Source: Tridacna crocea (Eukaryota; Mollusca; Bivalvia; Cardiida; Cardiidae). From it: DNA of 64,000 nt. The notes under the pieces are model-generated. The model was not told the origin of the DNA and did no database searches. It saw only the letters and a list, made by a program, of their open reading frames with translations. Of the stretch, positions 3,727-55,079 are shown one piece after another. How positions within the stretch are numbered: position 1 is the stretch's first letter; every line of letters begins with the position of its first letter. A program made the translations under genes and the position numbers. The stretch spans positions 255,501 through 319,500 of the forward strand of contig OX031065.1 of the NCBI GenBank assembly GCA_943736015.1. The letters are read 5' to 3'.

Positions 3727-3957
3727 ACACGAAGTAAATGCTAAAAGTAAAAGTCAAATATTTCTCAATCTAGAGGAAAGCTGCTATAGCTGAAAACAAG
3801 CTGTTGGTGTGTCAAGGTTTGCTTTGTTCCGATGATAAGTCAATCAGTGCAAAATCCATTAGAGCGTTAATTTACATTAAAGCTTGACCCCAGACCTTTG
3901 ACCTTGCAGATGGGTGATTTTTTTTTTGTGATCTTTTGAGAAACTGTGAAAAAAAAA

Positions 3958-4408
3958 TTAACTCTTTACCACACGAGAAAATTTTAGACTGGTCCAAATT
4001 GAAAGCATTTGCAGACGACAAAATAAAGCCGACTAAAAAATAGATATTTTTTCTGGAAAGGGTAGAAAACACTGGAACAAGGAGAAAATGCTGGTTACCA
4101 GCATTTTCTCCTTTTCCCACAGTGTTTTCATAAGGCTTCTTTCTCAGGGGCGTCAAAAGTAGGATTGTGTGGTAATGGGTTAACCCTTTACTCCACAGAT
4201 ACTCATTTCAATGCATTGCTTGTATGAGCCTTTGGAAAACATTGTGGCAAAAGGTGAAATTGCTCGTAACGAGCAATTTCACCTTTTGCCACAATATTTT
4301 CTACACTATCAAAAGGTGTCATATACACTTAAGAAACAGCTTCATCCTTGCTGTTATATAGGGTCAATTAGAGATACCATAGAAATGCTTTATGGGGTAA
4401 AGGGTTAA
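3958..4408. mobile_element. Two hairpin MITEs sharing one TTAA; the second is of the GCTCG subfamily
   Basis: Copy 1 is 3958-4183 and copy 2 is 4180-4408, overlapping in the single TTAA at 4180-4183. Copy 2 has a different palindrome: GTGAAATTGCTCG/CGAGCAATTTCAC, flanked by GTGGCAAAAG and CTTTTGCCAC. Its outer arms (GATACTCATTTCAATGC, GTCAATTAGAGATACCATAG) also differ from copy 1. Confidence 0.93.
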
Positions 4409-4508: not shown

Positions 4509-4737
4509 TTAACTCATTACCAAACGACAATATTTTAGACTGGTCCAAATTGAAAGAATTTGCAGGCGACAAAATAAAAGTGACTGGGAATTTGAAATTT
4601 GTTTTGTGAAGGGTAGAAAACATTGTGGGAAAAGGAGAAAATGCTGGTAACCAGCATTTTCTCCTTTTCCCACAATGTTTTCTAAAGGCTTCTTTCTCAG
4701 GGGTGTCAAAAGTAGGGATTGTGTGGTAGTGGGTTAA
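4509..4737. mobile_element. Hairpin MITE, intact reference copy
   Basis: This 229-bp copy is TTAA-bounded, with CTCATTACCAAACGAC at the left and GTGTGGTAGTGGG at the right. The palindrome spans about 4619-4682: AACATTGTGGG, AAAAGGAGAAAATGCTGG, TAACC and the mirror. It represents the family layout: TTAA, ~13-bp TIR, outer arm (TTTGAAATTTG, GGGTAGAAAA), palindrome, second unrelated outer arm (AGGCTTCTTTCTCAGGGG), TIR, TTAA. There is no ORF of note. Confidence 0.95.
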
Positions 4738-6432: not shown

Positions 6433-8580
6433 TTTTTAACTCACCTTAGCACAAAGTGCTAAAGGTGAGCTATTGTGATTGCCCAATGTCCGGTGTCCGT
6501 CGTCCGTCAACAATTTCTTTAAACATCTTCTCCTCCTAAACCACTGGGCCAATCTTCATGAAACTTGGCAGGAATGTTCCTTGGATGAAGCTCTACCAAA
6601 ACTGTTCAAAGAATTTAATTCCACTCATAACTCTGGTTTCCATGGCAACAAAACGAAAAAAAAAAACGAAATCTTTGAAAATCTTCTTCTCTGAAACTAG
6701 AAGGCGTACAGCTTTGATATTTGGTATGTAGCATCTCCTAATGGACCTCTACCAAGTTTGTTCAAATTATGCCCCTAGGGTCAAAACTGGCCCCACCCCG
6801 GGGGATAACCCGTTTTAGCGCGTTTACCAAAATTGTTCAAAGAATTTAATTCCACCCATAAAAAAAAACCAAATCTTTGAAAATCTTCTTCTCTGAAACT
6901 TGAAGGCGTAGAGCTTTGATATTTGGTATGTAGCATCTCCTAGTGGACCTCTACCAAGTTTGTTCAAATTATATCCCTTGGGTCAAAACTGGCCCCACCC
7001 CAGGGGTCACAAGTTTGAGCATAGGAACAAAGAAGGAAAACTTTAAAAATCTTCTCCTCTGAAACTTGAAGGCGTAGAGCTTTGATATTTGGTATGTAGC
7101 ATCTCCTAGTGGACATCTACCAAGTTTGTTCAAATTATATCCCTGGGGTCAAAACTGGCCCCACCCCAGGGGTCACAAGTTTGAGCATAGGAACAAAGAA
7201 GGAAGACTTTAAAAATCTTCTCCTCTGAAACTTGAAGGCGTAGAGCTTTGATATTTAGTATCTGGCATCTCCTAGTGGACCTCTACCAAGTTTGTTCAAA
7301 TTATGCCCCTGGGGTCAAAACTGCCCCCACCCCGGGGGTCACAAGTTTGAGCATAGGAACAAAGAAGGAAAACTTTAAAATTCTTTTCCTCAGAAACTAG
7401 AAAGCGTAGAGCTTTGATATTTGGTATGTTACATCTCGTAGTGGATCTCTACCAAGTTTATTCAAATGATGTCCCTGGGGTCAAAACTGGCCCCACCCCG
7501 GGGGTAATTAGTTTGAGCATAGGAACAAAGAAGGAAAACTTTAAAATTCTTCTCCTCTGAAACTAGATGGCTTAGAGCTTTGATATTTGGTATGTGGCAT
7601 CTTCGAGTGGACCTCTACCAAATTTCTTTAAATCATGCCCATGGGGTCAAAACTGGCTCCGCCCCTGGGGTCACAAGAAGGAAAACTTTAAAATTCTTCT
7701 CCTCTGAAACCAGATGGCTTAGAGCTTTGATATTTGGTATGTGGCATCTTCGAGTGGACCTCTACCAAATTTCTTTAAATCATGCCCATGGGGTCAAAAC
7801 TGGCTCCGCCCCTGGGGTCACAAGTTCGAACATAGGAGCAAAGAAAGAAAATTTTAAAATTCTTCTTCTCTTAAACTAGAAGGCATAGAGCTATGATATT
7901 TCGCATGTAGCAATTCCTAGTGGACCTCTGCCAAGTTTGTTCATATTATGCCCTTTGGGGTCAAAACTGGCCCTGTCCCGGGGGGGTCACAGGCTGGAAC
8001 ATAGCAACAAAGAAGGAAAACTTTAGAAATCTTCTCTGAAACTTGAGGGTGCAGAGCTTTGATATTTGGTATGCAGAATCTTCTAGAGGACCTCTACCAA
8101 GTTTGGTCATATGATGTCCCTGGCATCAAAACTGGCCATGCCTGGAGGTCACAGGTTGGAACATAGGAACAAAGAAGGAAAATTTTAAATTTCTTTTTCT
8201 CTTAAATGGGAAGGTGTAGAGCTTTGATGTTTGGTATGTAGCATCTTGGAGAGGACCTCTACCAAGTTTGTTCCAAGGATGCTGCTTTGGTTAAAACTGA
8301 TCCAGCCCTGGGGACCACAAGTTCAAACATAGGACAAAGAAGGAAAATTTGAAATTCTTCTTTGAAACTGGAAGGTGTAGAGCTTTGATGTTTGATTGCC
8401 CTATGTCCGGCGTCTGTCTTTCTATAAAAATCTTCTTCTCCTAACCCACTAGGCCAATCTTGATGAAACTTGGCAGGGATGTACCTTGGGTGAAGCTTTA
8501 CCAAAGTTGCTCAAAGAATGGAATTTCACTCATAAGCTATAGTCTAAGGTGAGCGTTCCACGGCCAATGGCCCTCTTGTT
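6433..8580 (+). mobile_element. F2 pearl/HINE-like element, ~155-bp unit variant
   Basis: The start is TTTTTAACTCACCTTAGC with the hairpin AGCACAAAGTGCT, then GTCCGGTGTCCGTCGTCCGT. An array of about nine units spans 6690-8390; each unit has CTTGAAGGCGTAGAGCTTTG, TAGTGGACCTCTACCAAG and GGGGTCAAAACTGGCCCC. The 5' motif (CTATGTCCGGCGTCTGTC) recurs at 8400, suggesting an internal duplication or nested copy. It ends GGTGAGCGTTCCACGGCC...CCCTCTTGTT. Confidence 0.85.
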
Positions 8581-12400: not shown

Positions 12401-15400
12401 TAGAAAACTTTGTGGGAAAAGAAGAAAATGCTGGTTACCAGCATTTTCTTCTTTTCCAACAATGTTTTCAAAAGTCTTCTTCTCTAGGGGCATCAGCATT
12501 GTGTGGTAAAAGGTTAACTCTTTATCAAACGTCATTTTTGCGGACTCGTCCGAATTCAAAGCTGTTTGCAGATGACAAATTAACTTTGGTTTAATATATG
12601 AAACTTGACTCTAAAAGGGTTGAAAACATTGTGGGAAAATGTTAACCAGCATTTTCTCCTTTTCACAATCTTTTCAAAAGGCTTTTTCTCTGGGTTTGTT
12701 AACCCTTTCCCAAATGACAAATTTTTGGACTAGACCAAATTGAAAGCATTTGCAGATGACAATTCAACTCTTGCTGGAAAGATGATTTCTGTCTACGATA
12801 GGGTAGAAAACATTGTGGGAAAAGGAGAAAATGCTGGTTACCAGCATTTTCTCCTTTTCCCACAATGTTTTCAAAAGGCTACTCTTCCAGACCTGTAAAA
12901 ACCAGGGATTGTTTGGGAAAGGGTTAAAAGTCTGGATTATGTCATGAACGGTCAGTTGATCAACAACTGTACATCATTTTGAATTTATTTTCATCCTATA
13001 CGAATGCCAGTGTATATGAACCCAATTCAAAAGCATTTTGCAGACAGACACGAAATTGAACAAAGCATACTTTATGTTACTTTTATGTACAAAGATCAGA
13101 AAACAATGGGAATGCACAAGAAATGCTGATTACTAGCATTTTCTCCTGTTCGCGCAGTGTTATTAAAGGCCTAATTTCTCTAGGATCGTTAAAACTCTGT
13201 ATACGTTGATGAAGGGAGAACCATCATAGCCCTTTATATGTGCTGTGTTTTAATAGACTCTTTATTAAACAACAAGATAGAAGAATTGCCTGAATTGAAA
13301 GCATTTGAAGACAACAGAGAAAATGTGGCTCAAAAATTGAAATTTGTTTTGGGAAGGGAAGAAAACATTGTGGGTAAAGGAGAAAATGCTGGTTACCAGA
13401 ACAGAGGGTCGCCTGATCAATCGTCGGCTTGACCAATTTTTCATGCAGGTTGATGATATCGCAACATGATTCATTCCTATCTCACCTCTGACCATTGTTT
13501 TGATGATGGTTATGTGGGAAAGCAGCTAGTTGCTTGAAAAGAATATTGAATGGAGTACTGGTAAATATAGTAAAGTCATAGTCAGATGCATAAGACAGCA
13601 TCAGAAGAACTTCTTCATTCCCTTTACCACATAATCCTGACTTTTAAATACCCTGAGAAAGAAGCCTCTTGAAAACATTGTGGGAAAAGGAGAAAATGCT
13701 GCATTTTCTCCTTTTCCCTCAATATTTTCTCTTCTTTCAAAAACAAAGTTAAATTTTTCAGTTGCATTTATTTTGTCATCTGCAAATGCTTTCAATTTGG
13801 ACCAGTCCAAAATTTTGTGGTTTGGTAAAGGGTTAAACAAGCTGAAGGATATGAAAACATTCTCATCAGAATTCAAAGAAAACTTTGGAATTAAAAGAAA
13901 ATATCAACCAGACCTAAACAATGTTTTTCCTGTGCTATTTTTCAGGTGAGACAGAGTATATACTGTCACCGTGGGACAATCTGGATGGCATGCAGCCTTC
14001 CGTAGGATCTGTATCTTTGTCGTTTTACAGCGGACTGTTCGCCTACGCTGGATGGTAAGTGAATGCTTAAATCTTTACCCAGCAACAAACTTTTGGACTG
14101 GACCAACATTACAAGGCCAATCCACAATCCACAGTGTCTTATACTCTATCATTAACAATTTTCATGCTTTGAGCCAAAATTAATTTGTTGTCTACATATG
14201 TTTTGGATGTAGACAAGACCAAAATTTTGATGTTTGTTAAAGAGTTAATGCTTGTCATATGCAGTTTTTCCTTCTACCACAATGTTTCCTGGGACATCAG
14301 GGATCAAATTTATATGATTCCTGGTTATGAGAAGAAAAACCTGTGTGATAATTTATTTATTCTACTATATCAATTTCAAACTGAGAATATCTACACATGT
14401 CATGGTCTACCATTATGATGTAACATTATTTAAGTCAGTCAGTAAGACAGATAATTCAAGCATACTAATTTTGCACATGCCACATTAATTTAGACCTCGA
14501 GCTTTTATGTCTCGTGTGATTCGGTGTATAATTTGTACTCAGTTACAACTTTTTTATATTGGGGATAAAAGTTGCCTATTGCTTTATTTCACAAACCCAA
14601 GTTTTCAACAACTATCAGTACTGCTGTGGAAAAGCTGGAAAACACATGCGCTGGTGCACTCACAGCCATGATATGAACTAAGCTGTTAAAACTGTTTTAA
14701 CTCTATACCAATCGACAGTTTTTAAGACTTGTCCAATTTGAAAGCAGTTTGCAGAGACAATATCAGTGTGACTCCAAAATTGAAATTTTGTTTATGGAGG
14801 GGTAGAAAACATTGTGGGAAAAGGAGAAAAATGCTGGTTACCAGCATTTTCTCCTTTTCCCACAATGTTTTATAAAGGCCTCTTTGCTGGGGCCGTTAAA
14901 AGTCAGGACTGTGTAGTAAAGGGTTAAACTCCAATACAAATCATTTCGCAGATGCCTCTGATTTGGACAAGTCTAAAATGTTACGTTGGGTTAAAAAGTC
15001 ACTTACTGCAGTATTGGGTATATATCACTCTTTTATTGAAACATGTTAATAAAAAACCTGTAATTTATGCTCTCATGATTTCATTGCCAAGCCACAATTT
15101 TTCTGTAACACTCCCAGACAGTAATAAAATGGTAGTTCTTACAACATCAAAGGAATCCTGCATTTTTATTGGGGTCTGCATACCATGGTGGTTAAGTATA
15201 CAGCTCCTAACCTGGGGGCTCAAGGTTAGAGCTGCACTAGAGCCACTGGGTTTTTTAAGGTAATGTTCTTTGGCAAGACACTTCCGAGTCCATAGCCTAA
15301 TACTGGTTAGACTCGGGACATACATGAATAATTTTACATGATCTGTTGCCTTGATTTTACTGGAATTATGTTGAAAGTGGCATAAAATAATTATCCCATT

Positions 15401-18400: not shown

Positions 18401-21400
18401 GAACTCTCATGGCCCTTGTGTCATCATGCAAAAACTTCAACATTTTGTAGCATATCTGGTATTGCTCTCTCATGGCCCTTGTGTCATCATGCAAAAACTT
18501 CAACATTTTGTAGCATATCTGGTATTGCTGAAGGCATTTACTTCAAAATTGGACAAGCTGTAATCTTTCAAAAAGTACACACACACAAGAGGGGCAGGCA
18601 ACCTTTAAAATATTTTAAAATGCTGGTCACAATGTTTTCTAAAGGCTTTTTACACAGGGGTGTGAAAAGTGTGGTACAGGGTTAAAGGTCACATTTTCAG
18701 TCCAATACTTACAAAATTCGGTCAAAATGTTTGTCTTGATAAACCTTGGATGAGTTTGAAAATGGATCACATCAGGTTTTCAAAGCCTTTTTTGCGAGGA
18801 TGAAATAATGGTACGTCTTTTAGGATTGGACAAACTTTGATGTATATATAAATTCCAGATTGTTCTTTGTTGGTGCTCGAGACGGACAACTGCCACAACT
18901 TATGGCCATGATTAACGTAAAGAGATTCTCGCCCATGCCTGCCATGTTGTTCACGGTATAAACTTTTAATTCCGTATCAAATAATTTAGAGGGTATATGA
19001 TGCTTGAGAAAATCGGGTCTTGAAAGCATTTCAGGAAAAGGAGAAAATGCTGATAGCCAGCTTTTTCTCCTTTTCCCACAATGTTTTCTACCCTTTCTGA
19101 TACAAAGTCGATTGGTTGACCCTCAATTAATTTATCATCTGCAAAAAGGATCTGGTAAGGAGCTAACAGCTATTTTCTACATTGACAGGTATGTTCAATC
19201 TTAAAGGTTTATCTGTAACTTTTAGAGTGAGGTGAAAGTCAAACCCCAGTAGTGCAGTCGGTATTATTATACTGCAAAAAAATTTCTTTTGATCTGATTG
19301 GATAATATGCCCAGAACATATATATATTATGTACAGTGGCAAAACAAACGTAAAAGCAGTTTCCCTCTCGGGAGCCCCGTTTACAGGACTACAATATGGC
19401 TTGCAACACGCGAAAAGGGGCATTCGGACATTTGCGTAAAGTGTCGTCTCGGATCAGCGTCTGCAGTCCGCACAGGCTAATCCAAAACGACACTATCCGA
19501 TTTTATGTGATTTTCTGTTTTACGAAAGTCTACTTTAGCACAAAATCTAATGTAGTCGTAAAGTGCCGTCTCGGATTAGCCTGCGCGGACTGCGCAGGCT
19601 AATCCGGGACGACACTTTACGCAAATGTCCGAATGCACCTTTTCGCGTGTTGCACTCCATATCAACACAACATCCAAAATGGCGGTGTCGACCAAGATTA
19701 ACATCAAGATTATGTCGCAAGCTGCACGTTTTAGCATGTATTACCGAGGTTTCAGTGACGTCAGTTCCCAGTATCGTCAGTTTTCACTGAGTTGGGGCAC
19801 TCAGAAGGGAATGTATATTTGTCAGTGTTGTCAATTTTTTAAACCAAAGAAGAGGTAAAATTTGCTTAACAAATTTATTTTGATATTACATCAAGGCAAA
19901 AATTAGTGTTGATATTATATCAAGGGTGATAATTCATTTTGATGAGTCAAGGGAGATGGTTTATTTTGATATTACACCAATGGATTATATGATATTCTAT
20001 CAAGGGAGATGATTTATTTTTAATTATCTTATTTCTTTCAGGGAGGCCTGTCAATCCTGATGTTAATTTCGGATGATATTTACGCCTTGATCAATTACAT
20101 GAGTTTTGTCCAGTGGTTGTCCGTTGGTATGTCAGTGACGGGAATGTTGTACTTGCGCTACAAAGAACCTAACAGAGACCGACCCATCAAGGTAGGGGAA
20201 TTTACTCATTCAAATTTGCAAACTCTTGTTGCACATAAGTAACTAGGTCCACATTTACCAACCATTCATAAAAACATTCTCAGTCTTATTCTACAGAGTT
20301 TTGTAAATTTAAAAGTAACATAAAACAGATTTGCTAAACCATTTAGTTTAACCATTCAGAAGTTGCCTTGGATTCAAATTTAGAAAAACCTTGGGTAATA
20401 AGAATAAGCATTTTCTACAGTATGGGTGGTGGATACAGACCATGGTTTTAAGATATTTTCAAAGTATAAGTTGAAACTGCTTTGGAAAAGCGAATTTTCC
20501 ATTTTTTTCACTGTTTTCTATGCTATTGTTACATGCTTAGAGTAAATATACTTAATTTTTCACCATTTACCACTCAATACCAAGTTTTATTGACCCTGAA
20601 GAAGAAAATGTTTGAAAAACATTGAGGGGAAAAGGAGAAAATGCTAGTAACTAGCATTTTCTCCTTTTCCCACAATGTTTTTCTTCCTTTCAAAGACATG
20701 TTTGAACCTCATCTAATCTGTAATCTGCAAATGCTTTCAATTTAGACCTCTCTAAAATTTTGATGTTCGATATAGGGTTTAACTCTTCACTACATAATCC
20801 TGGGTTTAAACGATCCAGAGGAAATAGCCTATGGAAAACCTTTTAGAAAAAGGAGAAAATGCTTGTTACTAGCGTGTTCTCCTTTTCTCACAATGTTTTT
20901 CTCCCTTTCAAAGACACATTAAAACATTTGAACCACATCCAATATGTAATCTGCAAATGCTTTCAATTTGGACCACTCTAAAATTTTGACATTCGATATA
21001 GGGTTTACCACATAATCCTGAGTTTAAACAACCCAGAGGAAATAGCCTATGGAAAATCTTGTCGAAAAAGGAGAAAATGCTTGTAACCAGCATTTTCTCC
21101 TTTTCCCACAAGATTTTCTACACTTTTACAGACAATTATAATCATTTCAGATAAATTTAACCCTTTACCAAACAATACCTGGTAAATCTTGTCGAAAAAG
21201 GAGAAAATGCTTGTAACCAGCATTTTCTCCTTTTCCCACAAGATTTTCTACACTTTTACAGACAATTATAATCATTTCAGATAAATTTAACCCTTTACCA
21301 AACAATACCTGGTTTTTATGACCCTGAGATAGAAGCCTTTTGAAAAAATTGTAGGAAAAGGAGAAAAAGCTGGTAACCAGCATTTTCTCCTTTTCCTACA

Positions 21401-23249: not shown

Positions 23250-24845
23250 TTTTTATGCTCCCCGAAGGGCGAGCATATAGTCGCCGCTTCATCTGTCCGT
23301 CCGTCTGTCCGTCCGTCCGTCCGTCCGAAGCGATTTCTCCACAACCCCTGGACCAAATTAGATAAAACTTCATATATGAACTTTTTGAAGTAAGGCGCCG
23401 ACGTATCTTTCCCGGATTTTCAATTTGACCCCGTGTCATGGAAAAAAGGGGCTTAATGCAAAATTGCAATTTTTGCCAATATCTCATTCAGTTTTCGTCA
23501 GAATATCATGAGACTTCATGGTTATATTGTTTAAGGAAAGTTTTAGCATGTGCCCTTGCTATTTTTAATCTTGGCGTTTTTTAAGTTGACGTTCTGTCAT
23601 GGAAAAAGGGGGTTTCTTGCAAAATTCCAATTTTTACTCTATATTTCATTCAGTTTTGCTCAAAATTTCATTAAACTTCATGGTTATATTGTTTTTTCAA
23701 AGTTTCACCATGTGCTCTTCTTTCTTTATGTGTTTTTCAATTTGACTCTCTGTCATGGAAACAGGGGGTTTCTTGTAAAATGACAAGGAAAAAGGGGCCT
23801 GGAAAAAAGGGGCTTAATGCAAAATTGCAATTTTTGCCAATATCTCATTTAGTTTTTGTCAGAATATCATGAAACTTCATGGTTATATTGTTTATGGAAA
23901 GGTTTAGCATGTGCCCTTGCTATTTTTAATCTGGGCGTTTTTTAAGTTGACATTCTGTCATGGAAAAAGGGGGTTTCTTGCTAAATTCCAATTTTTACTA
24001 ATGTTTCATTCAGTTTTGCTCAAAATTTCATTAAACTTCATGGTTATATTGTTTTTTCAAAGTTTCACCATGTGCTCTTGTTTCTTTATCTATGTGTTTT
24101 TCAATTTGACTCTCTGTCATGGAAACAGGGGGTTTCTTGTAAAATGACAAGGAAAAAGGGGCCCTAATGCAAAATTTCAATTTTTACTAATATCTTGTTC
24201 AGTTTTTGTCAAAATTTCATGAAATTTCATGGTTATATCTTGTTTTACAAGTTTCAACATGTGCCCTTTGTTGTTTTTTTTTTCAATCTATGAATTACAA
24301 ATGCACAAATACGTCTTTCCTGGTTTCTCAAGTTGAGGTTGCATCACGGAAAAAGGCGACTTCATGGAAAAAATTGTTCTTCTCTTGTATCTCCTTTATC
24401 GGTGCTCAAAACTTTGTGAAATTTCACATCTGTACTTGTTGGAATGTTTCCTGTTTCTCAATTTCAGGCTGCGTCTCGGAAAAAGGGGGCTTCATGTAAA
24501 AAATTGTTGTATGTAATATTTACTACATGACTACTCAAAATTTTATGAAATTTCGAATTTTGAAGTATTATTCAAAAATGCCACAAACCACACACCCATT
24601 GTATTTATTTCAATGATGCAATATTGTCTGATGAGAAAAGGGAGCTTAAAGGGGGCTTATTGGGCTTACTGTCCTCTACAAGTTTGTGTTACCTATCTCT
24701 AAGATAGTAATTGCCTTTTCACTTAAAATTTTTGGGGGCATGAACTGGTTCTTTTAGGATAAAAGAAGTGAATTTATATCAATTTCATATATTTTATGAC
24801 AAGCACTTGTTCGGGGAGCATAACCCGTCTTTGACGGCTCTTGTT
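23250..24845 (+). mobile_element. F3 pearl/HINE-like element with 361-bp tandem unit
   Basis: The start TTTTTATGCTCCCCGAAGGG is a hairpin with GCGAGCATATAG, followed by a (CCGT)n microsatellite at 23296-23328. Two 361-bp units follow (23436-24160; marker CATGGAAAAAGGGGGTTTCT), then more diverged units marked GGAAAAAGG. The subterminal inverted repeat TTCGGGGAGCAT mirrors the 5' ATGCTCCCCGAA. The 3' end is GACGGCTCTTGTT. It starts 186 bases after the SLC7 stop codon. Confidence 0.88.
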
Positions 24846-27900: not shown

Positions 27901-28582
27901 AATAACTCTTTACCATACAACAAAAATATGGACTTGTCCAAATTGGAAGCAATTGCAGATGACAATTTAGATGTGGCTCAGATAATGGAATTTGCCATGG
28001 AAAAGGATAGAAAATATTGAGGGAAAAGGAGAAAATGCTGGTTACCAGCATTTTTTCCTTTTCCTACAAAGTTTTCAAAATTTTTCTCCCTCAGGGTCGT
28101 TTGAACTCAGAATTATATAGTAACGGGTCAACCATCTTCAATCACAATTCTGAGATTCAAAGACGCTGAAAAAGATACCTTTTGAAAACACTGTGGGAAA
28201 AGGAGAAAATGCTATATACTAGCTTTTTTGGCTTTTTTCCACAATATCTCCAAGCCTTTCAAGAAATAAAATCTATCACTTTGGCCACGTTTATTTTGTC
28301 TTATCTGCAAATACTTTCAATTTGGACAAGTCTAAAGTTCTGACATGCGGGAAAGTTTAACCCTCTCCCAAACAAGCCCTTGTTTTTACGTGTCTGCAGT
28401 TCGTCTTTTGAAAACACTGTGGAAAAAGGAGAAATTGCTCGTAACGAGCAATTTCTCCTTTTCCGACAATTTTTTCTACCCTTTTAGAGAACTTTCTGCG
28501 ATTTTTATCAAATTTGAAATTGTGGTCTGCAAACTCCATGAGTTTGGAAGAGTCTAAAATTTATCGTTTGGGAAAGGGTTAA
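27901..28582. mobile_element. Chain of three hairpin MITEs ending in a GCTCG-subfamily copy
   Basis: The copies are 27901-28131, 28130-28360 and 28357-28582. The last has ends CCCTCTCCCAAAC/GTTTGGGAAAGGG, outer arm AAGCCCTTGTTTTTACGTGT and core ATTGCTCGTAACGAGCAAT. The middle copy has a ragged core (GCTATATACTAGC). Confidence 0.9.
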
Positions 28583-33129: not shown

Positions 33130-35378
33130 CCCATTACCAGACAACTCCTATTTTTGACGACCCTGGGAAAGACGCCTTTGGAAAACATTGTGGGAAAAGG
33201 AGAAAATGCTGGTCAATAGCATTTTATCCTTTTTCCACAATATTTTCTACCCTTCACAAAATAAATTTCAAATTTCCAATCACTTTATTTTTTAGCTCAC
33301 CTATGCATGAAGTGCTCATGGCGAGCTATTGTGATCGTGCTGTGTTCGTCGTGCGTCGTCAGTTGTCCGTCGTCAACTTTTTACCTTGTGTACGCTCTAC
33401 AGGCCACATTTCCGGGCTGATACTTATGAAAGTTGGTCAGGATGTTTGCCTAGATGAAATCTCGGACAAGTTCGAAAATGGGTCATGTCGGGTCAAAGGT
33501 CAAATCTTAGAAAAACCTTGTGTACGCTCTAGAGGCCACATTTTCAGTCGGATACTCATGAAATTTGGTCAGGATGTTTGTCTGGATGATATCTCGGACG
33601 AGTGTGAAAATGGGTCATTTGGGGTCAAAAACTAGGTCACTAGGTCAAATTTTAGAAAAATCATGTGTACGCTCTAGAGGCCACATTTTCAGTCGAATAC
33701 TCATGAAAGTTGGTCAGGATATTTGCCTGGATGATATATCGAAGCAGTTGGAAAATGAGTCATGTCAGGTCAAAAACTATGTCACTAGGTCAAATCTTAG
33801 AAAAACCTTGTGTACGCTCTAGAGGCCACATTTTCAGTCCAAAACTCTTGAAAGTTCTACAGAATGTTTGTCTTGATGATATCTCAAACAAGTTCGAAAA
33901 TGGTTCATGTTGGGTCAAAAACTAGGTCACTAGGTCAAATCTTAGAAAAACCTTGTGTACGCTCTAGAGGCCACATTTTCAGTCCGATACTCATGAAAGT
34001 TGGTATGGATGTTTTCTCGATGAAATCTAGGACAAGTTTGAAAATGGGTCATGCCAGGTCAAAAACTAGGTCACTAGGTCAAATCTTAGAAAAACCTTGT
34101 CTAAGCTCTAAAGGCCAAATTTTCAGTCGGATACTCATGGAAATTGGTCAGGATGTTTGCCTGGATGATATCTTAGACAAGATCGAAAATGGGTCATGTG
34201 GGGTCAAAAACTAGGTCACTAGGTCAAATTTGAGAAAAACCTTGTGTATGCTCTAGAGGCCACATTTTCAGTCCAAAACTCTTGAAAGTTGGTCAGAATG
34301 TTTGTCTTGATGATATCTTGGACAAGTTTGAAAATGGGTCATGTGGGGGTCAAAAACTAGGTCACTAGGTCAAATCTTAGGAAAAACCTTGTGTACACTC
34401 TAGAGGCCACATTTTCAGTCCAAAACTCTTAAAAGTTGGTCAGAATATTTGCCTTTATGATATCTTGGACGAGTTTGAAAATGGGTCATGTGGAGTCAAA
34501 AACTAGATCATCAGGTCAAATGTTAGAAAAACCTTTTGTAGGCTCTAGAGGCCACATTTTCAGTCCAAAACTCTTGTAAGTTGGTCAGAATGTTTGCCTT
34601 GATGATATATTAGACGAGTTTGAAAATGGGTCATTGGGGGTTAAAAACTCGGTCACCAGGTCAAATCTTAGAAAAACCCTGTATATGCTCTGGATGCCAC
34701 TTTTTCAGTCCAACACTCTTGAAAATTAGTCAGAATGTTTGCCTTTATAATATCTTGGATGAGTTTAAAAATTGGTCCTGTTGGGTCAAAAACTGGGTCA
34801 ATAGGTCAAATGTTATAAACACCTTTTGTATGCTCTGGAGGACACATTGTCAGTCTAATACTCCCAAAACTTGTTCATAATATTTGTCCTGGTGATACGT
34901 TGAATGAGTTTGAAAATGGGTCATGTGGAGTCAAAAACTAGATCAATTGGTCAGATATTAGAAAAACCTTGTGTACACTCTAGAGGCTACATTTTCTGCC
35001 TGATACTCTTCAGACTTGGTCAGAATGTTTGTATTGGTGATGTCTCAAAAGAGTTTGATAATGGGTAATTGTTGGGTCCAAAACTAGGTCACTTGGTGAA
35101 ATCTTAGAAAAACCTTTTGTATGTTGTAGAGGCCACATTTTCAGTCAAATACTCATGAAACTTGGTCAGAATGTTTGTCTTATTGATATCTGAAAAGTGT
35201 TTGATGATGGGTAATGTCTGATAAAAAACTAGGTTACTGGGAAACTAGATGGTTCATGTTTGGTCAATAGACTCAGGTGAGCGATTTCAGGGCCATCATG
35301 GCCCTCTTGTCTTTTTTTTGTCTGCAAATGCATTCGATTTGGAAAAATTTTAAATTTTGCTGTTTGGTAATGAGTTAA
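33130..35378. mobile_element. Hairpin MITE split by F2
   Basis: The left part is 33130-33288, including the whole palindrome and CCAATCACTTTA. The right part is 35312-35378, from TTTTTTTTGTCTGCAAATGC to GTAATGAGTTAA. The insertion lies in the T-rich outer arm, where intact copies read TTTATTTTGTCGTC. Confidence 0.88.
33289..35311 (+). mobile_element. F2 element with 145-bp tandem array
   Basis: TTTTTTAGCTCACC leads into a CGTCGTGCGTCGTC tract. About twelve units of about 145 bp (33400-35240) follow, each with GGCCACATTTTCAGTC, TTGGTCAGGATGTTTG and GGTCAAAAACTAGGTCAC. The end is ACTCAGGTGAGCGATTTCAG and GGGCCATCATGGCCCTCTTG. It is homologous to the 48.4 kb array. Confidence 0.9.
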
Positions 35379-37522: not shown

Positions 37523-38786
37523 GACTTTCCCAAACAATGAAATTTTAGACCAGTCCAAGCTAAAAGCAACTTGTTTTGGGGTAGGCAGAAAACATTGTAG
37601 TAACAAGAGCGGCAAATTGTCGCAAGATACGCCCATCTTACCCCAAATTGTAAAGCTGGGGCATGCACCGGACAAAATTCAAGTATGAAAAACAACAAAA
37701 GGCAATAACACAAAAATTAAGCGAGCAAGAGTTATGATTCCTGTGTACTGCGCTCCCCCTTGATGAGATCTATCCACCCATGAAATTTCATAACCCTAGC
37801 TAGTACAGTTTTGGAGATATCCTCCGGACAAAATTCAAGTATGAAAAACGACAAAGGGCAATAACCCAAAAATTAAGCAAGCAAGAGTTATGATTTCTGT
37901 GCACTGCGCTTCCTCTTGATGAGATCTATCCACCCATGAAATTTCATAACCCTAGCTAGTATAGTTTTGGAGATATGCTCCGGAGAAAATTCAAGTATGA
38001 AAAATAACAAAGGGCAATAACTCAAAAATTAAGCAAGCAAGAGTTATGGTTCCTGTACACTGCACTCCCCCTCGATGAGATCTATCCACCCATGAAATTT
38101 CATAACCCTAGGTAGTATAATTTTGGAGATATGCTCCGGACAAAATTCAAGTATGAAAAACAACAAAGGGCAGTAACTCAAAAATTAAGCAAGCAAGAGT
38201 TATGGTTCCTGTGCACTGCACTCGCCCTTAATGAGATCTATCCACCCATGAAATTTCATAACCCTAGCTAGTATAGTTTTCGAGATATGATCCGCACAAA
38301 ATTCAAGTATGAAAAACGACAAAGGGCAATAACTCAAAAATTAAGCAAGCAAGAGTTATGGTTCCTGTGCACTGCACTCCCCCTCGATAAGATCTATCCA
38401 CCCATGAAATTTCATAACCCTAGCTATTATAGTTTTGGAGATATGCTCCGGACAAAATTCAAGAACGAAAAACAACAAAGGGCAATAACTCAAAAATTAA
38501 GCAAGCAAGAGTTATGGTTCCTGTGCACTGCATTCCCCCTAGATGAGATCTATCCACCCATGAAATTTCATAACCCTAGCTAGAATAGTTTTGGAGATAT
38601 GCTCCGGACAAAGAACTGGACGCCGCCCGCCCGCCCGGATGCCACGGGTGATCCCATAATACGTCCCGTCTTCGACGGGCGTATAAAAAGGACAAAATAC
38701 TGGTTACCTACATTTTCTTCTTTTCCCACAATGCCCTCAAAAGCTTTCTTTTTCAGGGGTCATTAAAAGTCGGGTTGTATTGTACC
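37519..38786. mobile_element. Hairpin MITE split by F4
   Basis: The left part (TTAAGACTTTCCCAAACAAT to AAACATTGTAG) and right part (GGACAAAATACTGGTTACCT to GGTTGTATTGTA) flank the F4 copy. The insertion is in the left palindrome arm. Confidence 0.85.
37602..38689 (-). mobile_element. F4 pearl/HINE-like element, ~156-bp units, minus orientation
   Basis: Read on the minus strand it begins TTTTTATACGCCCGTCGAAG, a hairpin with ACGGGACGTAT, then a GGGCGGGCGG tract. About six units of about 156 bp follow, each with GGAGCATATCTCCAAAAC and CATGGGTGGATAGATCTCA. It ends GGGCGTATCTTGCGACAATT and GCCGCTCTTGTT. Confidence 0.9.
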
Positions 38787-39470: not shown

Positions 39471-39953
39471 TGACTGTGCCCCACTCAAGACTGTGCCCCT
39501 CAAGACTGTGCCCCTCAAGACTGTGCCACTCAAGACTGCCACTCAAGACTTTGCCACTCAAGACTGTGCCACTCAAGACTGTGCCACTCAAGACTGCCAC
39601 TCAAGACTTTGCCACTCAAGACTGTGCCACTCAAGACTGCGCCACTCAAGACTGTGCCACTCAAGACTGCACCACTCAAGACTGCCACTCAAGACTGTGC
39701 CACTCAAGACTTTGCCACTCAAGACTTTGCCACTCAAGACTGCCACTCATGACTGTGCCACTCAAGACTTTGCCACTCAAGACTGTGCCACTCATGACTG
39801 TGCCACTCAAGACTGCCACTCAAGACTGTGCCAATCATGACTGTGCCACTCATGACTGTGCCACTCAAGACTGCCACTCAAAGACTTGCTGCTCATTACT
39901 GTGCCACTCAAGACTTCCACTCATGACAGTGCCACTCAAAACTGCCACTCATG
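39471..39953. repeat. GTGCCACTCAAGACT minisatellite
   Basis: About 30 head-to-tail units alternate between a 15-base form (GTGCCACTCAAGACT) and a 13-base form (GCCACTCAAGACT), with TTTGCC and CATGACT variants. All three frames are open over long stretches because the unit has no stop codon. Confidence 0.95.
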
Positions 39954-42912: not shown

Positions 42913-43136
42913 TTAACCTTTTCCCAAATAAGCCCTTGTTATGTAGGTGTCTGCAGCACAAGCCCTTTGAAAACAATGTGGGAAGAAGACAAATTGCTCG
43001 TTACGAGCAATTTTTCATTTTCCAACAGTGTTTTCTACCCTTTTGGATAACCTTCCACCAATTCATCAAACTTTAAATTGTTTACAAATTCCTTGAGTTG
43101 GAAGAATGTAAAATTCGTCTATTGGGAAAGGGTTAA
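42913..43136. mobile_element. Hairpin MITE, GCTCG subfamily
   Basis: CCTTTTCCCAAATAAGCCC to CTATTGGGAAAGGGTTAA. The core is AATTGCTCGTTACGAGCAATT. It is most similar to the 28.36 kb copy. Confidence 0.92.
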
Positions 43137-48330: not shown

Positions 48331-50727
48331 ATACAGTCCTGACTTTTAACAACCCTAAAGAAGAAGTCTTTAGAAAACACTCTTGGAAAAGGAGAAAATG
48401 CTGGTAATCAGCTTTTTAGCTCACCTGAGCACGAAGTGCTCATGGTGAGCTATTGTGATCGTGCTGTGTCCGTCGTCCGTCGTGCGTCGTGCGTCGTCCG
48501 TCGTCAACTTTTTACCTTGTGTACGCTCTACAGGCCACAGTTTTGGTCGGATACTCATGAAAGTTGGTCAGGATGTTTGTCTCGATGAAATCTCGGACGA
48601 GTTCGAAAATGGGTCATGTGGGGTCAAAAACTAGGTCACTAGGTCAAATCTTAGAAAAACCTTGTGTACGCTCTAGAGGCCGCATTTTGAGTCGGATACT
48701 CATGAAAGTTGGTCAGGATGTTTGTCTCGATGATATCTCGGACGAGTTCGAAAATGGGTCATGTGGGGTCAAAAACTAGGTCACTAGGTCAAATCTTAGA
48801 AAAACCTTGTGTACGCTCTAGAGGCCGCATTTTGAGTCCGATACTCATGAAAGTTGGTCAGGATGTTTGTCTCGATGATATCTCGGACGAGTTCGAAAGT
48901 GGGTCACGTGGGGTCAAAAACTAGGTCACCAGGTCAAATCTTAGAAAAACCTTGTGTACGCTCTAGAGGCCGCATTTTCAGTCGGATACTCATGAAAGTT
49001 GGTGAGGATGTTTGTCTCGATGATATCTCGGACGAGTTCGAAAGTGGGTCACGTGGGGTCAAAAACTAGGTCACCAGGTCAAATCTTAGAAAAACCTTGT
49101 GTACGCTCTAGAGGCCACATTTTCAGTCGGATACTCATAAAAGTTGGTCAGGATGTTTGTCTGGATGATATCTCGGACGAGTTCGAAAGTGGGTCACGTG
49201 GGGTCAAAAACTAGGTCACCAGGTCAAATCTTAGAAAAACCTTTTGTACGCTCTAGAGGCCACATTTTCAGTCGGATACTCATGAAAAATGGTCAGGATG
49301 TTTGTCTGGATGATATCTCGGACGAGTTTGAAAGTGGGTCACGTGGGGTCAAAAACTAGGTCACCAGGTCAAATCTTAGAAAAACCTTTTGTACGCTCTA
49401 GAGGCCACATTTTCAGTCGGATACTCATGAAAGTTGGTCAGGATGTTTGTCTGGATGATACCTCGGACGAGTTCGAAAATGGGTCACGTGGGGTCAAAAA
49501 CTAGGTCACCAGGTCAAATCTTAGAAAAACCTTTTGTAGGCTCTAGAGGCCACATTTTTAGTCGGATACTCTTGAAAGTTGGTCAGGATGTTTGTCTGGA
49601 TAATATCTCGGACGAGTTTGAAAATGGGTCACGTGGGGTCAAAAACTAGGTCACTAGGTCAAATCTTAGAAAAACCTTTTGTACGCTCTAGAGGCCACAT
49701 TTCAGTCGGATACTCATGAAAGCTGGTCAGGATGTTTGCCTGGATGATATCTCGGACAAGAACGAAAATGGGTCATGTGGGGTCAAAAACTAGGTCACTA
49801 GGTCAAATGTTAGAAAAACCTGTTGTAGGCTCTAGAGGCCACATTTTCAGTCCGAAACTCTTGTAAGTTGGTCAGAATGTTTGTCTTGATGATATCTCAG
49901 ACAGGTTTGAAAATGGGTCATTGGGGGTTAAAAACTAGGTCACCAGGTCAAATCTTAGAAAAACCTTGTATATGCTCTGGATGCCACATTTTCAGTCCAA
50001 CACTCTTGAAAATTAGTCAGAATGTTTGCCTTTATAATATCTTGGATGACTTTGAAAATGGGTCATGTTGGGTCAAAAACTGGGTCAATAGGTCAAATGT
50101 TATAAACACTTTTTGTATGCTCTGGAGGACACATTTTCAGTCTGATACTCCTAAAACTTGTTCATAATATTTGTCCTGGTGATACCTTGAATGAGTTTGA
50201 AAATGGGTCATGTGGAGTCAAAAACTAGGTCAATGGGTCAAATATTAGAAAAACCTTGTGTACACTCCAGAGGCTACATTTTCTGCCTGATACTCTTCAG
50301 ACTTGGTCAGAATGTTTGTTTTGGTGATGTCTCAAAAGAGTTTGATAATGGGTATTTGTCGGGTCCAAAACTAGGTCACTTGATGAAATCTTAGAAAAAC
50401 CTTTTGTACACTGTAGAGGCCACATTTTCAGTCCAATACTCATGAAACTTGGCCAGAATGTTTGTCTTATTGATATCTCAAAAGTGTTTGATGATGGGTA
50501 ATGTCTGATAAAAAACTAGGTCACTGGGAAACTAGATGGTGCATGTTTGGTCAATAAACTCAGGTGAGCGATTTCAGGGCCATCATGGCCCTCTTGTTCT
50601 CTCTTTCCCTCAGTGTTTTCTACTCTATCAAGGAGAGAAATCATCATTTCATCAATGTTTAATTTGTTGTCTGCAAATGCTTTCAGTTTGGTCACATCCC
50701 AAATTTTGTCGTTTGGTAAAGAGTTAA
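48322..50727. mobile_element. Hairpin MITE split by F2
   Basis: The left part, to GCTGGTAATCAGC, and the right part (50599-50727), from CTCTCTTTCCCTCAGTGTTT to GTTTGGTAAAGAGTTAA, flank the F2. The insertion is in the right palindrome arm, as at 1.87 kb. Confidence 0.88.
48413..50598 (+). mobile_element. F2 element with 145-bp tandem array, partly homogenised
   Basis: TTTTTAGCTCACCTGAGCAC with GCACGAAGTGC leads into GTCCGTCGTCCGTCGTGCGT. About fourteen 145-bp units run from 48530 to 50520. The first eight are nearly identical, while the last five are diverged and match the last units of the 33.3 kb array one by one. It ends GGGCCATCATGGCCC TCTTGTT. Confidence 0.92.
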
Positions 50728-51704: not shown

Positions 51705-53202
51705 TTAACCGTTTACCAAATCATCCCTGGTTTTCACGACCCTGAGACAAAAGGCTTTTGAAAACATTGTTCGAAAAGGAGAACATGCTGGTTACCAGTA
51801 ATTTCTCCTTTTTATACGCCCGTCGTAGACGGGACGTATTATGGGATCACCCGTGGCGGGCGGGCGTCCGGGCGGGCGGGCGGGCGTCCGGGCGGGCGGG
51901 CGGCGTCCAGTTCTTTGTCCGGAGCATATCTCCAAAACTATTCTAGCTAGGGTTACGAAATTTCATGGGTGGATAGATCTCATCGAGGGGGAGTGCAGTG
52001 CACAGGAACCATAACTCTTGCTCGCTTAATTTTTGAGTTATTGCCCTTTGTTGTTTTTCATACTTGAATTTTGTCCGGAGCATATCTCCAAAACTATACT
52101 AGCTAGGGTTACGAAATTTCATGGGTGGATAGATCTCATCGAGGGGGAGTGCAGTGCACAGGAACCATAACTCTTGCTCGCTTAATTTTTGAGTTATTGC
52201 CCTTTGTCGTTTTTCATACTTGAATTTTGTCCGGAGCATATCTCCAAAATTATACTAGCTAGGGTTACGAAATTTCATGGGTGGATAGATCTCATCTAGG
52301 GGGAGTGCAGTGCACAGGAACCATAACTCTTGCTCGCTTTATTTTTGAGTTATTGTCCTTTGCCGTTTTTCATACTTCAATTTTGTCCGGTGAATATCTC
52401 CACAACTATACTAGCTAGGGTTATGGAATTTCATGGGTGGATAGATCTCATCAAGGGGGAGTGCAGTGCTCAGGAATCATAACTCTTGCTCGCTTAATTT
52501 TTGAGTTATTGCCCTTTGTCTTTTTTCATACCTGAATTTTGTCCGGAGCATATCTCCAAAACTATACTAGCTAGGGTTATGAAATTTCATGGGTGGATAG
52601 ATCTCATCAAGGGGAAGTGCAGTGCTCAGGAACCATAACTCTTGCTTGCTTAATTTTTGAGTTATTGCCCTTTGTTGTTTTTCGTACCTGAATTTTGTCT
52701 GGAGCATATCTCCAAAACTATACTACCTAGGGTTATGAAATTTCATGGGTGGATAGATCTCATCAAGGGGGAGTGCAGTGCACAGGAACCATAACTCTTG
52801 CTCGCTTAATTTTTGAGTTATTGCCCTTTGCCGTTTTTTATAGTTGAATTTTGTCCAGTGAATATCTCCAAAACTATACTACCTAGGGTTATGAAATTTC
52901 ATGGGTGGATAGATCTCATCAAGGGGGAGTGCAGTGCACAGGAACCATAACTCTTGCTTGCTTAATTTTTGAGTTATTGCCCTTTGTTGTTTTTCATGCT
53001 TGAATTTTGTCCGGTGCATGCCCCAGCTTTACAACTTGGAGTAAGACGGGCGTATCTTGCGACAATTTGCCGCTCTTGTTCCACAGTGTTTTCCGCCTTG
53101 CCTGAAAGAAAACTTTAATTTTTGAGTTGCCTTTATTTTGTTGTCTGCAAGTGCTTTCAATTTAGACCAGTCTAAAATTTTGTTGTTTAATAAATAGTTA
53201 CT
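51705..53202. mobile_element. Hairpin MITE split by F4
   Basis: The left part (TTAACCGTTTACCAAATCAT to CCAGTAATTTCTCC) and right part (53081-53202, CCACAGTGTTTTCCGCC to AATAAATAGTTA) flank the F4. The insertion is in the right palindrome arm. Confidence 0.87.
51809..53080 (+). mobile_element. F4 pearl/HINE-like element, ~156-bp units, plus orientation
   Basis: TTTTTATACGCCCGTCGTAG with ACGGGACGTATTATGGGATC, then a GC-rich GGGCGGGCGTCC tract at 51855-51905 and about seven units with GGGTGGATAGATCTCATC. It ends AGACGGGCGTATCTTGCG and GCCGCTCTTGTT. It is the inverted partner of the 37.6 kb copy. Confidence 0.92.
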
Positions 53203-54851
53203 ATGAGACAAAAATTAAATTGTCCCAGATTTCAGCAGACAATTCAAAAAAGGGCCAAAAAAGTGGAAAAGGTACTGAAAGGATAAATATAAACATTATT
53301 GGAAAGAGACACTATTTGGATTATATGAAGAAAGCATTGTGTTGCAATGTACCAGTGTTTATCTTTAGATTCCTTTGACATAGTGTGCAAGTTGTTGGCT
53401 AAATACATGTACTCATGTTTTCTTTTTAAAAATCATTATCAAGTATAAGATTTTGAGCTTTTTTTACTTTCATTTATTTGCAACTCAAAGCATCAGCAGA
53501 GATGAAAATGCTTGTCGCAAGCATTTTTACCTTTGGACACAGTGTTTTCAAAAATATACCGAACAACTTTAAAAATCGGGCTAGTTGGCTATGGGTTAAG
53601 TTTTGATTCAAGGGCCATTTATTTCTCTTTATACAAGTGGTATGGTCCCTAAATTTGTCTTAGAAGTATTCTCTGCATTAAACAAATTTAACAGTATGAG
53701 AATATACTCTAGCTGAAGTATTAAAATATACTTTCAATGTTCATCATACTACAAGGGCATACAATTAAAAAAATATCAGAAAGATCTTTACAAGCTATTA
53801 TTACTTATTTTGATGTTTCGAAAATATAAGAAAAATATGAGATTTTTGTTTTGGCCCCTTGAAATATTATGCAATAAAAGCCACATTTACTTTTTTATGC
53901 AGTTCAAAGTTAAACTTCCTAGTCTTTTTGCGAGCCTTTTTGACAGGTCTTAATTGAGACCAAGCACTGGGATAAGAATGTAACACTTAGTATTCAATTG
54001 TTTTCTACTTTTGCCACAATATTTTCAAGCTGTTTCTCTCCAAGAGTAGTCAAAAGTCGTCATTGTATGCGAAAGGGTATTGACATGTCCTGCTTGAGAT
54101 GGAGGTGTTTATTCACAAAATATACTGTTTACTTGTTTCAACTCCCTTTACATAATATTTATTTTGTTGTGGTACTCGATTCATGTTACGAGAAGATGAT
54201 ACTTCTTTCAAATTAAAATGAAAAAAAAAAGAAGCTTTGTTTATGTTCTTCTTTTTATTTAACTGTTTCATCTTAAATAGTATTGAGTTTTGTTGACTAT
54301 TTCACTCTGCACATGATGAGAAACTTTTGGTCACATCCAAATTGAATGCACCTTGGTTTAAACGCACCTTCAGACTAGGGGGAACGATTTCTTCATTTAC
54401 TCAATCTAATTCTAAAATCGACTTCCATGAGTACTTTCAGTACTTTGATTACAGTCATAAGGATGAAGCCCTTTAAAACTTGGATAAAGGAGAAAGTGGG
54501 GGTCACAATATCTCTATCTTTTTCCACAAATGTTTTGTACCTTCTAAAGGACAGTACCTATTTTTTGAGACGAGCTTAATCATCCAGCTACTAAGCACAA
54601 CCCAATGGCCTTTTGCAGACATTGTAGATTAAGATCAGACTGCAAAGAATGTGCAGATCAATCTTTGATTTAAACTGTCCAATTAGAATATATTTTCTCC
54701 AACAAAAATAACTGTGAAAGACGAACATATGGGCTTTTTCTATCGGCTTGAAAGTTTTATATAATTTACTTAGCAGTTTAAAGTAACAACAGCTGCCAAA
54801 AATAAACAAACATGGTGTTAAAATGTTTTTGAATTTTTATCATACAATTTA
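53203..54851. other. Unassigned stretch with MITE debris
   Basis: Decayed MITE pieces lie at 53489-53599 (GAAAATGCTTGTCGCAAGCA, still a mirrored core) and 54000-54080 (TTTTGCCACAATATTTTCAA). The rest shows no exon or named repeat. Confidence 0.5.
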
Positions 54852-55079
54852 TAACCCATTACCCCATAAGGCATTTCTATGGTATCTCTAATTGACCCTA
54901 AATGACAGCAAGGATGAAGCCGTTTCTTATGTGTAAATGACACCTTTTGATAGCATAGAAAACATTGTGACAAAAGGTGAAATTGCTCGTGACGAGCAAT
55001 TTCACCTTTTGCCACAATGTTTTCCAAAGGCTCCATCAAGCAATGTGTAGAAATGAGTATCTTTGGAGTAGAGGGTTAA
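54852..55079. mobile_element. Hairpin MITE, GCTCG subfamily, inverted sister of the 4.2 kb copy
   Basis: It shares GGCATTTCTATGGTATCTCT and AAATGAGTATCTTTGGAGTA with the 4180-4408 copy in reverse orientation. The core is AATTGCTCGTGACGAGCAATT. Confidence 0.92.

Follow-up and report, generated by a model that had tools for sequence, protein, structure and literature searches.

What makes the two arms of a palindrome change together? The question is raised by a DNA palindrome that recurs in the genome of Tridacna crocea and whose core takes several forms. For the whole stretch of DNA analyzed here (64,000 nt, called the window), the original prediction was that the palindrome core differs between subfamilies with both arms changed together, and that the hairpin itself is maintained, either by selection or by arm-to-arm correction. 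We followed the palindrome in the window, in 20 stretches of 10 kb fetched elsewhere in the genome (200 kb), and in searches of the genome (1.05 Gb, 31 contigs).

The element and its copies in the genome

The palindrome centered on window position 4268 consists of GGCAAAAGGTGAAATTGCTCG and its complement, and as single-stranded DNA it has a strong predicted fold (-33.7 kcal/mol, z -14). The element that contains it (Table 1) has inverted ends, TTAACCCTTTACTCCA and TGGGGTAAAGGGTTAA, that match at 94% over 16 bases. When 154 oriented copies, a set picked by the palindrome, were aligned, the palindrome was conserved within an otherwise variable interior bounded by TTAA. TTAA was kept at roughly 80 to 90% at both edges and the columns beyond were near-random, as was also the case in the alignment of subfamily B. 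Next to the TTAA are CCC-type terminal inverted repeats (TTAACCCTTTAC.../...GTAAAGGGTTAA), the left end of the main type being most often TTAACTC. MITEs of the piggyBac superfamily share a TTAA target site and ends beginning with CCC. Because of its TTAA target, its CCC ends, and its small size without coding capacity (229 bp), the sequence fits a very abundant nonautonomous TTAA DNA transposon, a piggyBac-like MITE, of which the palindrome would be an internal part.

Genome-wide, the 14-base half core was found 346,075 times in forward and 345,467 times in reverse orientation, while the same letters read backwards were found 2 and 0 times. Perfect 31-bp cores of the main type numbered 191,599 and alternative cores 25,805, the alternative pattern read backwards giving 0. 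Flank-based searches that were blind to the palindrome gave 196 left-right pairings; 118 of these had centers that differ from the main palindrome at no more than 10 positions (ungapped), and many of the others were deleted or decayed. All scans target this palindrome or these flanks, so that subfamilies with a very different palindrome would escape them. A palindrome scan of the window listed 28 palindromes, 27 of the same family and one, at 19587, of another sequence; the latter belongs to a different hairpin family (GCGCAGGCTAATCC / TTAGCCTGTGCA) that was also seen around position 336 of one fetched locus (L098).

The genome contains 118 matches to PF13843, a family of piggyBac transposases, some of them pieces of one locus. 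Paired ends were seen at 5 of the 11 loci inspected, all beginning with TTAACCC: TTAACCCTTTATATAC twice, TTAACCCT[TA]GTCATGC twice, and TTAACCCATTTATGCC once. None of these 11 of the 118 matches was an autonomous partner with TTAACCCTTTACC ends, 8 of the 11 having been inspected in the domain flanks only, and the family palindrome was not seen between the paired ends of transposase loci in the fetched stretches.

TABLE 1 Features of the palindrome family in the 64,000-nt window
Feature	Position	Strand	Remarks
Subfamily B element, TTAA to TTAA	4180..4408	-	229 bp (55 + 67 + 107 bp on the + strand)
Palindrome at the center of the B element	4235..4301	.	33-bp arms, loop base 4268, arms 97% complementary
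Terminal inverted repeat of the B element	4180..4195	+	includes TTAA
Terminal inverted repeat of the B element	4393..4408	-	includes TTAA
Main-type copy adjoining the B element	3958..4183	+	TTAA 4180-4183 common to both
Main-type palindrome	4614..4684	+	35-bp arms without mismatch
Second subfamily B element of the window	54851..55079	+	ends computed from 107/55 spacing
Palindrome of the second B element	54958-55024		A.C mismatch at -21, loop G
Subfamily C palindrome	28410..28476	-	GGAGAAATTGCTCG
Subfamily C palindrome	42969..43035	-	outer arms decayed
Main-type palindrome	20616..20682	.	GCTAG/CTAGC paired change at -3
Palindrome with GAAG/CTTC	12403..12469	+	A.T at -14

Subfamilies and paired arm changes

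The prediction that the core differs by subfamily with both arms changed together was borne out: flank-defined groups differ by paired changes. The alternative core was recovered at all four window copies for which it had been claimed (centers 4268, 28443, 43002, and 54991), the positions of 4.2, 28.36, 42.91, and 54.85 kb originally given being element starts rather than palindrome centers, and the GCTAG/CTAGC copy at 20.6 kb was likewise found (center 20649). The alternative-core copies sort into distinct flank groups. Compared with the main type, subfamily B carries paired changes at 4 of 33 arm positions (-20, -13, -8, and -3), all four of them pair swaps (G.C to C.G, A.T to T.A), and subfamily C at 2 of 33 (-8 and -3); a single copy, D (L022:513), has T.A at both -3 and -8. 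If the arms changed independently, the probability that four differences are all paired and complementary would be about 3e-7.

The 220 palindrome matches in the window and the 200 kb, for which up to 24 mismatches were allowed so that some are remote or spurious, were classified by their core at -20, -13, -8, and -3 (left/right arm); 91 were GAAG/GAAG, 16 CTTC/CTTC, and 5 GATC/GATC. Complementary both-arm changes in this set cluster at the same positions: 29 copies at -3, 24 at -8, 20 at -13, and 24 at -20, where a crude expectation gives 6.3, 4.1, 3.0, and 8.3, respectively. At -26, a group of main copies is set apart by one more paired change, from T.A to C.G, which 11 of 93 copies show on both arms.

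The spacing is shared as well. Its medians are 107 + 67 + 55 = 229 bp in the 38 main and 12 B copies with recognizable ends, and the flanking medians are 106/54.5 in the 4 such C copies. The long side is exactly 107 bp in 18 of 38 main and 9 of 12 B copies, with a range of 81 to 118 bp among the main copies, and the short side exactly 55 bp in 26 of 38 and 12 of 12. The arms of main and B copies have identical bases at 29 of 33 positions, and their inner flanks match at 30 of 80 and 13 of 33 (shuffled means, 22 and 8). Thus, the place, sequence, and symmetry of the palindrome outlasted its flanks, with the proviso that strongly altered palindromes would have escaped the searches. Arm identity of this extent despite divergent flanks agrees no less well with a symmetric site that is recognized by its sequence than with base pairing.

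One fetched locus, L132 (C9:56032756-56033056), has nine identical paired changes relative to the main type, including that at -8, and one site changed differently in each arm; it may be a member of an unsampled subfamily.

Changes within single copies

The fate of individual copies was followed in 93 main copies, kept if both flanks fitted and if -3 and -8 were of the main type, a selection that makes these two positions invariant in the set. They contained 214 one-arm cells, 21 complementary pairs (11 of them at -26), and 7 other doubles. The idea that complementary both-arm changes are common outside the diagnostic positions was rejected, there being 10 against 3.4 expected once -26 is set aside. 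In otherwise perfect cores throughout the genome, one-arm changes at -3 numbered 10,065 (5,089 + 4,976) versus 551 doubles, and those at -8 numbered 3,941 (1,947 + 1,994) versus 111. We also rejected the idea that paired changes keep individual copies perfect, because one-arm changes far outnumber double changes.

In the parts not used for picking, private changes in 57 B copies amounted to 10/681 and 18/1197 in the outer arms (28/1878), against 92/5697 and 33/2900 in the flanks (125/8597); private mutations in the outer arms are as frequent as in the flanks. For the whole palindrome, 17 B copies that had been found by their flanks were used, an eighteenth group (that of copy D) being left out. 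With the 57-copy panel defining what is private and two known variable sites masked, the palindrome had 11/1102 and the flanks 29/2616 (P = 0.86), a comparison in which the panel favors equal inner-arm rates because 40 copies had been added to it on the strength of their inner palindrome. When only the 17 unpicked copies were counted, the values were 15/1102 and 68/2616 (P = 0.02), and the inner arms of resident copies may enjoy some modest protection.

Variants common to several B copies behave otherwise. Among the 17 copies, the palindrome had shared variants at 11/1102 when the loop and the left -21 site were masked and at 28/1136 without masking, versus 125/2616 in the flanks (P = 7e-10 and 8e-4, respectively), that is, they are 2- to 5-fold rarer in the palindrome. 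Since private rates in the outer arms equal those of the flanks while shared variants are rarer, constraint acts mainly on the transposing lineages and not on resident copies. Groups with a mismatch have also spread unrepaired: A.C at -21 is carried by 37 of 57 B copies, and G.T at -14, the one-arm form GGAG/CTTC, by 7 of 20 fetched relatives of the copy centered on 12436.

Near window positions 10830, 12620, 47535, and 50969, copies were observed in which part of one arm is missing; these are possible traces of hairpin-mediated deletion.

Arm-to-arm copying at -8 and -3

Double changes are nevertheless more frequent than independent mutation predicts. At -8, the expectation for 191,599 perfect main cores is 20.3 doubles, and 111 were observed; complementary ones made up 40 of the first 50 listed, where the one-arm spectrum gives an expected fraction of 0.38 (P = 1.7e-9). 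In that spectrum, T accounts for 1,466 of 3,941 changes, and 100 listed places comprised 49 G, 33 T, and 18 C. At -3, 551 doubles were observed against 132 expected, with a weaker excess of complementary ones (30 of the first 50 listed, against an expected fraction of 0.46; P = 0.03); two of these 50 doubles had the core changed to C at -3 only, and two lie 120 bases apart. The numbers of complementary doubles, one-arm bases, and loop bases were read off the first places in each list by eye, some of them being obtained by subtraction; these places lie on contig C1 for one-arm changes and doubles at -3, one-arm changes at -8, and loop rows, and on contigs C1 to C6 for the -8 doubles.

All 34 T.A doubles at -8 in the genome were fetched. 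Flank identity of at least 88% over 80 bases was found in only 3 pairs among them, which leaves 31 flank groups. As the flanks are mostly unrelated, the doubles arose many times, and the proposal that the sporadic -8 pairs form one small subfamily was rejected. The flanks of three of the 34 (L123, L125, and L126) resemble those of C; these copies may be remnants of an intermediate.

Differences in copy age and subfamily heterogeneity inflate doubles of any kind, and noncomplementary doubles also exceed expectation, about 3-fold at -3 and 1.8-fold at -8. Because age differences inflate all doubles alike, the split between complementary and other doubles is the fair yardstick. By this yardstick, and on the basis of the first 50 of each list, the excess of complementary pairs at -8 is about 75 for 3,941 one-arm changes and that at -3 about 145 for 10,065, or 1.5 to 2% of one-arm changes at both sites. 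In 33 of the 34 -8 doubles, all but L132, an ungapped comparison of the outer arms gave 118 differences confined to one arm, 5 that were paired, and 9 of other kinds, indels inflating the first of these numbers; with so many one-arm differences, any copying tract must be short.

Arm-to-arm copying, as a statistically shown outcome, is therefore a process that occurs at a low rate. The correction envisaged in the original prediction does happen, and it is too rare to account for lineage-wide conservation. That prediction had also named what would speak against it, namely arm differences that accumulate independently and covarying pairs no more common than chance. Independent differences are largely what individual copies display; the pairs are more common than chance.

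Loop base

The single loop base varies as well. Oriented by their flanks, the 17 unpicked B copies had C in 9, G in 7, and T in 1. All 57 B copies had 37 C, 17 G, and 3 T, but 34 of the 40 added copies were selected for their loop base and the other 6 for having A in both arms, and 17 G in 57 is thus not a frequency. The 93 main copies had 77 T, 10 A, 5 C, and 1 G. Transversions to the complement at other sites average about 1%; one flank site of B, -55, reaches 19%, presumably as a sublineage marker.

The lineage with A at -21 gave 4,433 + 4,377 matches genome-wide. Twelve of 100 listed rows represented 6 places that match on both strands, with A on both arms, and the remaining 88 had C (70), G (12), T (4), or A (2) in the loop. 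When the flanks were read at 40 of these places, 4 of the 34 single rows (L052, L058, L060, and L072) proved to have been seen from the other arm, and 9 of 12 G loops were true. Both states of the -21 variant, and both of a neighboring flank variant, are found with differing loop bases. A tree of the B flanks had no strongly supported branch, a resolution too weak for flips to be counted. Complementing of the loop matches the inversion of a spacer between inverted repeats, which, with a loop of one base, has the same appearance as a point mutation in any one copy.

Other repeats

Several further repeats were noticed. A tandem array with a 145-bp unit occurs twice in the window (33497-35238 and 48514-50525), with very similar units and an interspersed, satellite-like character, and a satellite-like array with a 156-bp unit occurs twice in opposite orientation (37663-38612 and 51914-53019), also with very similar units. 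Other tandem arrays, with units near 161 to 166 bp, lie at 2078-2989, 6871-8394, and 23417-24143, and a 15-bp tandem repeat of about 32 copies at 39481-39951 is open in overlapping reading frames. Tandem repeats of a similar sort occur in bivalves. The MITE palindrome itself is contained in tandem duplications at 20630-21313 (218-bp and 130-bp units). Around position 3856 of one fetched locus (L026), two palindromes follow each other with the inner AAAATGCTAGTTACTAGCATTTTCTCC part repeated and the GCTAG variant in both. Another family of odd-length palindromes, with arms ending in AGGACCAT or AGGGCCAT, was seen in the window and the fetched loci; six of its palindromes represent four 15-base forms, and one repeat form comes in addition.

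Comparison with known systems

With piggyBac MITEs the element shares TTAA at both ends, CCCTTT-type ends, short length, and the absence of coding sequence. It also has an internal 67-bp palindrome at conserved spacing, which, in the stretches fetched, was not seen within the paired ends of piggyBac loci of the same genome. The TTAA target is also common to Kolobok, another TTAA superfamily. Fold-back transposons, of which Tm1 is reportedly one, have long terminal inverted repeats that make up most of the element and whose arms snap back. The arms of the MITE can snap back too, but its terminal repeats are short and its long palindrome is internal; the terminal match in the element at 4180 is 16 bases, and no longer one was found.

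In piggyBac, the transposon ends contain 19-bp palindromes bound by two cysteine-rich domains (CRDs) of a transposase dimer (PMC11707139), and by analogy a symmetric protein site would be a natural model here: in both cases palindromic transposon DNA is involved, and that of the MITE is plausibly bound by a dimer. The CRD palindromes of piggyBac and piggyBat described there are about 14 to 19 bp long and near the ends, whereas that of the MITE is 67 bp long and internal. Homogenization of arms together with spacer inversion has been described as template switching in yeast genes (PMC8604942), and template switching has been proposed for RNA stems (PMC8794818); both outcomes have their likeness here. 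Those studies concern yeast coding genes and RNA genes, while the present case offers nearly 200,000 replicas beside one-arm counts at the same site. We found no description of the element in the titles or abstracts listed, a text search for its sequence gave a zebrafish paper as its single hit, and the MITE is absent from the passages on bivalve MITEs in PMC10294476.

Interpretation

The account that we regard as probable combines lineage-level selection on a symmetric cis-acting site with rare template switching that supplies paired changes. A replicating polymerase would now and then switch template between the arms, a molecular step suggested by the yeast work, and would thereby copy a change from arm to arm and invert the one-base loop. 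New amplified lineages would be founded only by elements whose palindrome is symmetric, has changed little, and lies roughly the right distance from both ends, most likely because the palindrome must be bound by a dimeric protein (a transposase or a host factor) or must form a hairpin. A paired change, whether made by template switching or by two successive mutations, would pass this selection and could give rise by amplification to a subfamily like B or C. Inserted copies would then decay, mostly by changes in a single arm. As arm copying is too rare for lineage-wide conservation, selection must be assumed; template switching also leaves the kept sequence and spacing unexplained, which makes selection on transposition the simplest reading.

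Arm-to-arm correction alone, by gene conversion or template switching, might instead be supposed to keep every copy perfect without selection. The complementary doubles in excess of expectation at -8, and weakly at -3, the loop flips, and the fewer private changes in the inner arms of the 17 unpicked B copies are what it would lead one to expect, yet there are some 30 to 45 one-arm changes for every complementary pair, outer-arm private rates equal those of the flanks, the inherited mismatches at -21 and -14 have spread unrepaired, and the conserved spacing goes unexplained. We consider it highly improbable. The opposite extreme, pure descent with selection on the two-fold symmetric site of a homodimer (piggyBac-type CRDs, for example) whose half-sites must match, without arm copying, accommodates the conservation of the sequence itself and not of pairing alone, as well as the conserved spacing to the ends, and has a precedent in the CRD-bound palindromes (PMC11707139). 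Scattered complementary doubles at -8, in 31 flank groups among 34 copies, and the 40 complementary ones among 50 doubles there call for a process at the level of the copy, loop complementing remains without an explanation, and the palindrome stands 55 to 107 bp from the ends instead of at the tips, so that we hold this version unlikely.

The palindrome could also do its work as a hairpin or cruciform, serving, say, as a nuclease or replication signal when the element transposes, with selection seeing the pairing. The 33-bp arms with a 1-bp loop and their strong predicted fold agree with this, as do the compensated pairs at -3, -8, -13, -20, and -26, the loop flips, and the nine paired changes of L132. 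If pairing alone mattered, however, paired drift should have carried the arms about as far as the flanks, yet main and B are unlike at no more than 4 of 33 positions (our scans would have missed very different palindromes); moreover, groups with A.C and G.T mismatches have spread. Such a working hairpin therefore seems quite unlikely. Viral terminal hairpins exist in flip and flop orientations, and a comparable, rather improbable scheme would have the hairpin extruded, resolved, and resealed in each round of transposition, so that the loop flips and an arm is copied while selection keeps the sequence and the 107/55-bp spacing. Founders of new subfamilies would then carry freshly rewritten, perfectly paired arms, and the gap between core types (191,599 main, 25,805 alternative, and 34 with -8 alone) would reflect the rewriting of several bases in one event.

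The original prediction offered selection and arm correction as alternatives, and under the combined account both act, at different levels. Its further claim, that of a maintained hairpin, goes beyond the data: the near-identity of the main and B arms fits recognition of a symmetric site at least equally well.

This is no new kind of system; its worth lies in its scale, with a single palindrome serving as a natural mutation-rate experiment. It has long been asked whether paired changes in stems result from selection on two separate mutations or from copying in one step. With nearly 200,000 near-identical palindromes at independent places, arm copying and loop inversion can be measured against one-arm mutation at the same site, and the effect of selection on founder lineages can be told apart from the fate of resident copies.
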